Of a stretch of 64,000 nucleotides of DNA, positions 5,594-9,045 are shown in pieces. Below the pieces are notes generated by a model. The model was not told the origin of the DNA. It saw nothing but the letters and a program-made list of their open reading frames with translations, and did no database searches. The DNA comes from Alteromonas sp. KC3. Lineage in GTDB: Bacteria; Pseudomonadota; Gammaproteobacteria; Enterobacterales; Alteromonadaceae. Each line of letters starts with the position of its first letter. Position 1 is the first letter of the stretch. The stretch lies in assembly GCF_016756315.1 (NCBI RefSeq), contig NZ_AP024235.1:4030001-4094000 (forward strand). Direction: 5' to 3'. A program made the translations under genes and the position numbers.

Positions 5594-5706
5594 TTACCAG
5601 CATAATAATTACATAGACACGATTGATTGCCTGAAGCTGTCGAGTCTGATATAGATATCGGTCCAATCAGGACAAGATGGATGTCGTAGTGTAGGAGATG
5701 TGGCAT

Positions 5707-6156
5707 ATGCCAACAGGAAAAGAAACAAAATCCCTAGGACTATTAGCGCTGGCAGGTTTGCAGCCATACGAAGCAAAACCAGACGAAGAGTACATGGGCG
5801 AGCCCCAAATGGAGCACTTCCGTCTATTGCTAAAAGCATGGCGTAACCAGCTTCGCGAAGAAGTTGATCGCACGGTAACCCACATGAAGGACGAAGCAGC
5901 AAACTTCCCTGACCCAGTGGACCGCGCCGCGCAAGAAGAAGAGTTCAGTCTAGAGTTACGTACACGTGACCGTGAGCGTAAGCTAATAAAGAAAATTGAA
6001 AAAACGCTTAAGCGCATCGAAGAAGACGATTTCGGTTTCTGCGATTCTTGTGGAATTGAAATTGGTATTCGTCGTCTAGAAGCTCGTCCTACAGCTGACC
6101 TTTGTATCGACTGTAAGACAATGGCTGAAATCAAAGAAAAACAACTTCAAGGCTAA
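5707..6156 (+). CDS. dksA: RNA polymerase-binding transcription factor DksA
   Basis: DksA enters the secondary channel of RNA polymerase and, with ppGpp, adjusts rRNA and biosynthetic promoters. The 149-aa protein has the long coiled coil (residues about 35-110, with DPVDRA at the tip region including the key Asp/Ala pair) and a four-cysteine zinc finger (C-x2-C in FCDSCG and C-x2-C in CIDCK). The start at 5707 lies 10 nt after AGGAG; an ATG at 5698 overlaps that site and is rejected. A terminator follows the stop. The target-type promoter of rplK in this window carries a GC-rich discriminator. Confidence 0.97.
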
Positions 6157-6185: not shown

Positions 6186-6216
6186 AAAGCCTCATCCCGA
6201 AACGATGGGGCTTTTT
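6186..6216 (+). terminator. Intrinsic terminator after dksA
   Basis: An 11-bp stem (AAAGCCTCATC against GATGGGGCTTT, one G-U pair) with a 7-nt loop is followed by TTTTTG. It ends just before the gluQ start, so gluQ probably relies on read-through or its own promoter. Confidence 0.85.
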
Positions 6217-6222
6217 GTTATT

Positions 6223-7140
6223 ATGCATGAAAACTATGTAGGGCGTTTTGCTCCCTCTCCTTCAGGCCAACTTCATTTTGGTTCACTCGTTACCGCTGTA
6301 GCCAGCTATCTAGACGCTAGGCATCACAACGGCAAATGGCTTGTGCGCATGGAAGATATTGACGAGCCACGCTGTATCTCAGGTGTCGACAAGGATATTC
6401 TTACCACCCTAGAAAAGCATGGATTGTGTTGGGATGACGAGGTTATTTATCAAAGCCAGCAACATGCTCGATACCAAGACAGACTCGATGAGCTTATCTC
6501 ACAGCAGCGAGCTTACTTTTGTACGTGTACCCGCAAGCAAATCAAAGCTATGGGGGGGCAGTACAATGGCCATTGCCGCGATAAAGGCTATACAGTTTCC
6601 ACAGAAGGCACTGCCATAAGGTTGAAACTCGATACATCACTTGAAGGCTTTAACGATGTCATTATGGGCAACGTTGCAGTTCCACTTCAAACCAGTGGCG
6701 GGGAAGATGTAGTGCTAAAACGTCGAGATGGGTTATTTTCTTACAATTTGGTTGTTGTGCTTGATGATGTTTTTCAACATGTAACTCACATTATTCGTGG
6801 CTGTGATCTTATTGGCGTTACTGCTTTACAACGCGCAGTTTACGGTGAACTCGGATTTAGCATGCCAACGTACGGTCATGTACCTGTTGCCGCTGTCGCC
6901 CCCGGTAGAAAACTTAGCAAGCAAAATCGAGCTACTCCCATCAACAATCTAACACCGCTTGAAAACCTTGTAAGAGCAATGCGCTTTTTCGGTTTTTCAT
7001 TCCCTGATGCTACAGCGTTTGAAAATGTGTCAGTATTGTTAAACTATGCTATTTCAGTGTGGGACAGGAAAAAAGTCGTTAAAACGCCCGAAATTATTGT
7101 TCCACAACATGAATCCACTTATTATAGCGAACCTTTATAG
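6223..7140 (+). CDS. gluQ: Glutamyl-Q tRNA(Asp) synthetase
   Basis: A truncated paralogue of glutamyl-tRNA synthetase that attaches glutamate to queuosine at position 34 of tRNA(Asp). It holds the Rossmann catalytic core only, with no anticodon-binding domain (305 aa), as expected for GluQRS. Seen: the FAPSPSGQLHFGSL block (HIGH variant), the VRMEDIDEPR block, a zinc site of C-x-C ... Y-x3-C type (CTCTRKQI and YNGHC) and the KMSKS variant GRKLSKQN. The start at 6223 (MHENYVGRFAPSPSG) is preferred; an ATG at 6205 lies inside the dksA terminator stem. Followed by pcnB. Confidence 0.94.
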   Translation: MHENYVGRFAPSPSGQLHFGSLVTAVASYLDARHHNGKWLVRMEDIDEPRCISGVDKDILTTLEKHGLCWDDEVIYQSQQHARYQDRLDELISQQRAYFCTCTRKQIKAMGGQYNGHCRDKGYTVSTEGTAIRLKLDTSLEGFNDVIMGNVAVPLQTSGGEDVVLKRRDGLFSYNLVVVLDDVFQHVTHIIRGCDLIGVTALQRAVYGELGFSMPTYGHVPVAAVAPGRKLSKQNRATPINNLTPLENLVRAMRFFGFSFPDATAFENVSVLLNYAISVWDRKKVVKTPEIIVPQHESTYYSEPL

Positions 7141-7160
7141 TCTGCGGAGATACCATCATC

Positions 7161-8555
7161 ATTCATCGTGTTTTTAAATCTGTTAAACGCGCTTTTTCAA
7201 AAGAAAGCTCGTCAGATAACAAATTAAAGCCTAGAACTATGACACGTGGTGAGCACGGTATATCTCGTGAAGATATCAGTGCGAATGCGTTAAAGGTGAT
7301 GTATCGCCTTAACGGAGCCGGTTTTGAGTCGTATCTAGTTGGCGGCTGTGTACGCGATATTTTGATGGGACATGAACCGAAAGACTTCGATGTGGTAACC
7401 AATGCCACACCAGAGCAAATTAAAGGGCTATTTAAAAATTGTCGTTTGATTGGTCGCCGTTTCAGGCTTGCACATATTGTTTTTGGTCGAGAAATCATTG
7501 AGGTTGCCACGTTTCGTGGGCACCACCAAGAATCCGATGACGATGACACCATACCTAAAGGCAAAGCAATTGCTAAACGCGACGCCCACGGCCAGCTCGT
7601 TCGCGATAATGTGTTTGGCTCGATAGAAGAAGATGCTGAACGCCGCGACTTCACCTTTAACGCCATGTACTACAGCGTGGCAGATTTCACAGTCAAAGAC
7701 TTTGCTAACGGACTTGAAGCCATCGAAAAGCGCGAGGTTGCACTGATAGGTGACCAAGAAACTCGCTATCGCGAAGACCCTGTGCGAATGCTTCGTGCTG
7801 TTCGATTTGCTGTGAAGCTTTCGATGCAAATTGAAAAACACACCGCTGCGCCCATCAAGTCACTGGCAAACTTACTGCAAAATATTCCCCCTGCCCGTTT
7901 ATTTGAAGAGACGTTGAAGCTCTTTTTATCTGGCAAGGGCGAAGCAACGTTTTTGATGTTGCATGAATACGGTCTGATAGAACCATTGTTTCCTCAGCTT
8001 GCACCATTTTTAAAAGATGAAAACAGCCGGGAAATGCAGTTTGTTCGCCGTGTGTTAGCCAATACCGATGAGCGAATTAACAGTAATCAGCGCGTTACAC
8101 CAGCGTTTTTGTATGCTGCACTTTTATGGTACCCAGTAGAAGAACAATCTCAGCGCTTACAAGCAGAGTCTGGCCTAAATGCACATGATGCCTTTAACAT
8201 TGCTTCAGGCGAGGTTATCGCACGCCAAACGCAGCGCATCATGATACCCAAGCGCTTTTCAACTGTGGTGCGCGATATTTGGATATTACAACAGCGTTTA
8301 CCCAAACGATTTGGTCGACGTGCTTTTCAGTTATTAAGTCATCCTAAATTCAGAGCGGGCTACGACTTCTTGCTTGCCCGAGGGCAGACAGAGGGTGGCG
8401 ACTTACTTGAACTTGCACAGTGGTGGACTCACTTCCAGCATGCCGAAAATGGCAAGCAAAAAGGCATGTTAAACGCGCTTAGAAAAACGGAAGGCTCGAA
8501 GAGTGCGCCTAGAAAGCGTAAGCGCCGTCCAGCCAAAAGAGACTCAGATGCATAA
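7161..8555 (+). CDS. pcnB: Poly(A) polymerase I, probable AUU start codon
   Basis: Template-independent poly(A) polymerase of the class II nucleotidyltransferase family, which tags RNAs for decay. Nucleotidyltransferase motifs are clear: LVGGCVRDILMG, the metal-binding DFDVV (DxD) and the RRDFTFNAMYY block; the C-terminus is a basic RKRKRRPAKR tail. The first in-frame ATG is at 7239, but coding similarity to E. coli PcnB extends upstream to codon ATT at 7161 (HRVFKSVKRAFSKESS), with no ATG, GTG or TTG in frame there. GGAG lies 11 nt upstream. From ATT the protein is 464 aa; E. coli PcnB is about 465 aa and is known to start at AUU. ATC codons at 7155 and 7158 are alternatives. The stop overlaps folK. 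Confidence 0.9.
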   Translation: MHRVFKSVKRAFSKESSSDNKLKPRTMTRGEHGISREDISANALKVMYRLNGAGFESYLVGGCVRDILMGHEPKDFDVVTNATPEQIKGLFKNCRLIGRRFRLAHIVFGREIIEVATFRGHHQESDDDDTIPKGKAIAKRDAHGQLVRDNVFGSIEEDAERRDFTFNAMYYSVADFTVKDFANGLEAIEKREVALIGDQETRYREDPVRMLRAVRFAVKLSMQIEKHTAAPIKSLANLLQNIPPARLFEETLKLFLSGKGEATFLMLHEYGLIEPLFPQLAPFLKDENSREMQFVRRVLANTDERINSNQRVTPAFLYAALLWYPVEEQSQRLQAESGLNAHDAFNIASGEVIARQTQRIMIPKRFSTVVRDIWILQQRLPKRFGRRAFQLLSHPKFRAGYDFLLARGQTEGGDLLELAQWWTHFQHAENGKQKGMLNALRKTEGSKSAPRKRKRRPAKRDSDA

Positions 8556-9045
8556 AGAACATGTTTATATTGGTGTAGGTAGCAACCTTGGTGACAGCCA
8601 AGGTAAAGCGCGCAATGCCTTTGATGCGATTGCCAAGATTGAAGATACTCGGTTACTTAAGACATCTTCACTTTATTCAAGTAAACCAATGGGACCTCAA
8701 GACCAACCGGACTATATCAATGCAGTATGTTTGATTGAAACAGCATTGAAACCCCATGGTTTACTCAAGCAGCTACAACGTATTGAACTTGAAGAGGGTC
8801 GCGAGCGCAAGGGCGAACGTTGGGGTCCACGTACGCTTGATTTAGATATTTTACTCTATGGTAGTGAAACTATTGATACCGCTGACCTTGTTGTGCCTCA
8901 CTATGGCATGGCAGAGCGTGAGTTTGTAATGGTGCCATTGTTTGAAATAGCCCCAACAATGGTAATGCCTGATGGGAAACCAATTTCACAATGGGTCGCC
9001 AATTGTTCTCTAGACGGTCTTCGTCGCCTGCGCTCTTCCAATTAG
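8548..9045 (+). CDS. folK: 6-hydroxymethyl-7,8-dihydropterin pyrophosphokinase (HPPK)
   Basis: Transfers pyrophosphate from ATP to hydroxymethyl-dihydropterin in folate synthesis. The 165-aa protein has the family blocks YIGVGSNLGD near the N-terminus, SLYSSKPMGPQDQPDYINAV, and the metal/ATP-binding RTLDLDILLYG. The ATG at 8548 overlaps the pcnB stop region (ATG inside the last codons of pcnB), so translation is coupled to pcnB. An in-frame upstream ATG at 8503 would lie deep inside pcnB and adds residues outside the conserved fold. Followed after 63 bp by panB. Confidence 0.95.
   Translation: MHKEHVYIGVGSNLGDSQGKARNAFDAIAKIEDTRLLKTSSLYSSKPMGPQDQPDYINAVCLIETALKPHGLLKQLQRIELEEGRERKGERWGPRTLDLDILLYGSETIDTADLVVPHYGMAEREFVMVPLFEIAPTMVMPDGKPISQWVANCSLDGLRRLRSSN

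Follow-up and report, generated by a model that had tools for sequence, protein, structure and literature searches.

The pcnB locus and its open frame

The window (the whole stretch of DNA analysed, 64 kb inside a single 4.56 Mb contig) carries the gene order dksA-gluQ-pcnB-folK, and the features that bear on the start of pcnB are the following.

5698..6156, + strand: dksA (TIGR02420, 168.1 bits against a cut-off of 115.5)
6205..7140, + strand: gluQ (GluQRS; NF004314, 349.1 bits against a cut-off of 256)
7146..7149, + strand: putative Shine-Dalgarno (SD) core GGAG; the GGA codon is present in 59/59 genus genomes, 8 nt from 7158 in 59/59
7155..7157, + strand: ATC, third AUH codon of the run, variable among the 59 genus genomes and not conserved
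7158..7160, + strand: ATC, most likely start codon (AUC) and first conserved codon
7158..7238, + strand: predicted N-terminal extension before the first ATG, kept as protein
7158..8555, + strand: pcnB (poly(A) polymerase I) coding sequence with its start taken at ATC, 465 aa, with TIGR01942 and Pfam matches
7161..7163, + strand: ATT, 11 nt past GGAG, the start in an earlier sequence-only reading; more probably the second codon (Ile), or else an additional start
7239..7241, + strand: ATG, first in the frame; it would be the conventional start but is not favoured
8548..9045, + strand: folK (TIGR01498, 145.4 bits against a cut-off of 54.1; ATG 8548 placed by eye)

Profile searches identify the product of pcnB as poly(A) polymerase I and not as a CCA-adding enzyme: it scores 528.9 bits against TIGR01942 (cut-off 305.65), contains the Pfam domains PolyA_pol, PolyA_pol_RNAbd and PolyA_pol_arg_C, and reaches 596.4 against the narrower equivalog model PRK11623, under the cut-off of 702 of that model. 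A different gene of the genome, away from this locus, has the CCA enzymes as its best match (PRK10885, 385.9 bits on a 218-residue piece, under the cut-off of 451). Named relatives retrieved with the PcnB protein belong mostly to Alteromonas and neighbouring genera, which places the genome in Alteromonas in a broad sense. Upstream, the gluQ stop (TAG, 7138-7140) lies 17 nt before ATC 7158, a gap that ranges from 5 to 29 nt among the 59 genus genomes. Downstream, the folK ATG overlaps the pcnB stop (8548-8555 in the window), which suggests translational coupling of the two genes.

The frame of pcnB runs without a stop from 7128 to the TAA at 8553-8555 and, as the sequence-only reading had claimed, the window sequence holds no ATG, GTG or TTG in this frame upstream of 7239 (codons 7128-7238). 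The frame continues past the gluQ stop as TGC GGA GAT ACC ATC ATC ATT CAT CGT GTT. In 50 of the 59 genus genomes the frame is likewise free of canonical codons between the upstream stop and the end of codon +2; each of the remaining nine has a TTG at codon -20, and in five there are further canonical codons at -23 to -46. The gluQ stop of these nine genomes is found 13-19 nt before column 7158, so that their canonical codons ahead of the conserved N-terminus fall only inside gluQ. The same reading had placed GGAG 11 nt ahead of ATT 7161 and had counted 464 aa from that codon; both are correct, and the count from 7158 is 465 aa. Equality of length with the E. coli protein is weak evidence for a start, given that the indels differ, and was not used as such.

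The conserved N-terminus and the choice of start codon

Among the 59 genus genomes, all of which possess pcnB and which include the window, pN/pS over codons +2 to +15 is 0.35 in frame versus 1.49 and 2.17 in the two shifted frames, and is 1.02 for the two codons just before 7158. By this measure the stretch upstream of ATG 7239 is evidently a conserved protein N-terminus, as was proposed for the extra 26 codons in the sequence-only reading; an alignment of 5' ends, which had been suggested as a check, shows the stretch conserved as protein in the genus, with ATT in column 7161 in 57/59 genomes. Translation beginning at ATG 7239, with the upstream stretch untranslated, would have the merit of using the first canonical codon of the frame, but the purifying selection in frame upstream of it makes this very improbable, as do the finding that the first downstream canonical codon sits at this offset in only 18/59 genus genomes and the lack, by eye, of an SD core upstream of 7239.

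The start is then to be sought in the run of consecutive AUH codons at 7155, 7158 and 7161, which in the window lie 5, 8 and 11 nt past GGAG respectively. Column 7155 varies across the genus (Ile 33, Thr 19, Val 6, Ala 1), column 7158 is AUH in 59/59 (AUC in 49, including the window, and AUU in 10) and column 7161 is ATT in 57 and ATC in 2. The spacing of GGAG is fixed at 8 nt to 7158 and 11 nt to 7161 in 59/59 genomes, though the intervening bases vary, which places an AUH codon behind an SD core at a spacing usable for starts of the IF3-discriminated kind. Open reading frames of the same genome taken from their first ATG show an SD spacing of 8 in 15/284 cases and of 11 in 5/284. RNA folding of the start region gave no signal (z 0.36 and 0.37).

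AUC 7158 is the likely start of pcnB and the best candidate on sequence evidence, favoured over AUU 7161 because of the SD spacing, the boundary of conservation and an ungapped comparison with E. coli PcnB made by eye. Numbered from 7158, the two proteins share R4, V5, S14, E16 and S18, and the annotated ATT of E. coli aligns best on column 7158, again by eye; its SD spacing of 7 nt is in the same register as GGAG of the window. Residues numbered from 7158 also run co-linear with the PRK11623 profile (9-462 on 9-462). The sequence-only reading thus seems to have been right that pcnB starts at a codon other than AUG, one that belongs to the AUU/AUC class, whereas the exact codon is probably 7158 and not the AUU at 7161.

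That AUU 7161 is itself the start, with AUC 7158 as the last codon of the leader, nevertheless draws on real observations: ATT is nearly invariant there, its third base is the most constrained, and in some sister lineages an AUH codon stands in column 7161 but not in 7158, namely L051 (spacing 9), L410 (spacing 10), family f12 and most of f11, with the SD register of f11 and f12 ambiguous (6-7 or 9). Against it, one would hardly expect 7158, as part of the leader, to remain AUH in every genus genome while 7155 varies, GGAG would stand at a spacing of 11 nt throughout, and the E. coli ATT would be out of its best column; we hold this placement to be unlikely. The third bases were analysed in 60/61 genes (one containing N was left out; 54 distinct sequences), and the gene tree requires 2 third-base changes at 7158 and 1 at 7161, compared with 9-18 at eight conserved Ile columns in the body of the gene; AUA is missing at 7158 and 7161 and is found at 8/8 of the body columns. 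As the third bases are frozen and AUA is missing at both codons, the pattern points to an RNA-level constraint on each of them.

Such a constraint speaks for a tandem weak start AUC AUC AUU, with possible initiation at 7158 and 7161, perhaps also at 7155, and products differing by one or two residues. Two adjacent AUH codons occur in 59/59 genus genomes and again in ten rows from other genera of family f1 (L035-L038, L041, L045, L047, L048, L411, L412). Yet Ile at 7161 appears to have a protein reason, because 75/84 near-cognate rows of the order carry I, F or L as the second residue (counted by eye), which is hydrophobic even in families that have no AUH codon there. Family f18 has TTT, which is unable to start, as codon 2, and it is frozen in 27/27 (in three of these the script count is off by one codon), so freezing of the second codon need not mean that it serves as a start; together with the lack of conservation at 7155 this leaves dual initiation a rather poor prospect.

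We therefore return to AUC 7158 and consider it somewhat probable that pcnB has a weak near-cognate start set by GGAG at 7146-7149, used mainly at this codon and disfavoured by IF3, with slow initiation and little polymerase as the outcome. GGAG would direct the ribosome to the near-cognate codon, AUC 7158 would be the codon mainly used and would be decoded as Met by the initiator tRNA, and Ile 7161 would become residue 2, in place of Phe2 of the E. coli MFTRV. The arrangement would be the Alteromonas form of the E. coli AUU start, in which the AUU/AUC class and not AUU itself has been retained. IF3 would disfavour either codon and so slow initiation and keep the polymerase level low, the IF3 effect and the low level both being inferred; by analogy, the AUC start may limit pcnB expression in Alteromonas, and with it a toxic enzyme, as the AUU start does in E. 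coli.

Distribution of the AUU/AUC class over the order

The search of the order matched 276/295 genomes, and from the genus, order and family searches together 245 genomes belonging to 16 families entered the scoring; eleven further families lie outside this sample, two of which (f19 and f24) had no match in the search. An AUU/AUC start of pcnB was assigned by hand in at least some members of 15/16 sampled families, one being ambiguous, and was typically seen as GAGGTG followed by four bases and then AUU or AUC, or as GGAG or GAGGA forms (f1, f2, f6, f8, f9, f10, f11, f12, f16, f18, f25, f27 and part of f20 and f21). The claim of breadth is made because the place is conserved and not from the automatic score. 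An automatic rule that combines spacing and SD called 198/245 genomes near-cognate, a score too weak to serve as a call for each genome, as 307/1165 AUH codons lying in frame within the body of the gene pass it too; it was used only together with conservation of place. Set against the hand labels, this rule called 4/24 genomes of f7 near-cognate and L047 and L194 canonical, and left 3/7 of f9 and 1/4 of f16 ambiguous. The chosen start stands at an SD spacing of 6-8 in 80/84 near-cognate rows, a figure which is partly circular in that the script rewards a spacing of about 7.

The exceptions are of several kinds. The start in f15 comes from one genome only, which also has GTG; pcnB of f7 mostly begins with ATG, and the extension is absent in some f7 genomes; the six exceptions in f18 (L361-L366) are small or incomplete genomes, two of them with broken frames. 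In some genomes of f18 and f2 (L347, L374, L369-L373) the AUU start is separated from the conserved body by long, charged stretches, and L409 (f1, g4) has a canonical TTG immediately ahead of ATT, in column 7158.

A tree of 130 PcnB body sequences, for which start classes were assigned manually and four rows omitted, gathers the near-cognate rows, with two exceptions, into a single supported clade next to f7 (95 rows, SH-aLRT 98); at least nine changes of start class are needed on this tree. Rooted, the tree fits a reading in which the near-cognate start was gained once and gave way six times to canonical starts (L409; L414/L052/L055; L039/L040; L398/L399; L361; L362), L102 and L106 being two separate cases from outside the order. 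The 84 near-cognate rows comprise 64 AUU and 20 AUC with no AUA, and AUU and AUC have switched at least nine times. This suggests that a class of weak start, its codons interchanging, has been kept across much of the order, and it is in this form, as an AUU/AUC class found in some members of 15/16 families, that the earlier proposal of a rare start conserved beyond the enterics holds.

The class-level loci, 47 in number, offer some further observations. In L102, outside the order, pcnB has CGGAGGTGCACG then ATT and no in-frame canonical codon, possibly an AUU start of independent origin, in a gene that lacks the N-terminal extension. L104, L106 and L232 are likewise without canonical codons.

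Comparison with known near-cognate starts

The AUU start of E. coli pcnB was reportedly the subject of work by Binns and Masters in 2002. RefSeq annotates E. coli K-12 PcnB from ATT, as a protein of 465 aa, and megablast of E. coli genomes found pcnB in 5374/5426.

The infC gene of the same genome begins ATT AAA GGC downstream of GGAGG, where no canonical codon is seen (L126:1471-1473). The infC start was read as AUH in 21/21 genomes (this one and 20 others): AUA in four (L424, L428, L430 and L439, of which L428 is possibly AUU), AUC in L435 and AUU in the rest; the reading is less sure in L425, L429 and L433 (ATG) and in L439 (TTG), where an in-frame canonical codon lies a few bases past the SD. 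Because infC remains AUH in the lineages where pcnB reverted to canonical starts (f7, f20, f21 and f1 g5), the reversions of pcnB look gene-specific. A more speculative, and in our judgement doubtful, extension is that selection keeps pcnB of the order within the IF3-discriminated AUU/AUC class, AUA excluded, that pcnB and infC might together make up a small regulon at the level of translation, with more capacity for polyadenylation whenever IF3 runs short, and that the Alteromonas start is doubled (AUC AUU) with redundant codons.

Natural AUC starts seem hardly documented in bacteria, judged mostly by titles and abstract openings, and among the matches listed neither an AUC start of pcnB nor an order-wide conservation of its start was found in those titles and openings; the 2002 study of Binns and Masters may discuss other species. 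Of six papers matched on AUC starts, the one bacterial study deals with an AUC mutation introduced into a Bacillus reporter, which gave expression at much lower levels, according to an excerpt of PMC10303841. If the AUC/AUU start is right, the N-termini of pcnB products are at risk of being annotated too short. The exchange of AUU and AUC without AUA, combined with the returns to canonical starts, would constitute a natural experiment on the retention of a weak start, in which the reverted lineages are predicted to have higher PcnB or relaxed control. Overall, the comparative sequence evidence indicates that the non-AUG start of pcnB is real and conserved, an AUC variant of the known AUU start.

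Excerpts of the published record place self-control of IF3 at the AUU of infC (PMC9410913) and list near-cognate starts with an extended SD in S. aureus for cvfC1 (AUU), ccpN (AUA) and infC (AUA), with AUU starts proposed for lepA of Borrelia burgdorferi and B. licheniformis (PMC13009471, PMC1780047). These too are near-cognate bacterial starts, in other lineages and, except for infC, in unrelated genes. Alteromonas pcnB resembles infC in having an AUH-class start after a strong SD, the infC codon here being AUU, but differs from it in that AUA is absent from the 84 pcnB rows while infC also uses it. The closest counterpart is pcnB of E. coli, a member of the same gene family with the same neighbours (dksA-gluQ-pcnB-folK), a near-cognate start, an SD at similar spacing and a similar N-terminus. 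Unlike the E. coli gene, Alteromonas pcnB presents AUC and not AUU in the homologous column, as matched by eye, with a second AUH codon next to it, an SD core of GGAG in place of GAGGTG, and 17 nt in place of 59 nt between the gluQ stop and the pcnB start. What is known is the AUU start of E. coli, and what is added here is the AUC variant and its breadth.
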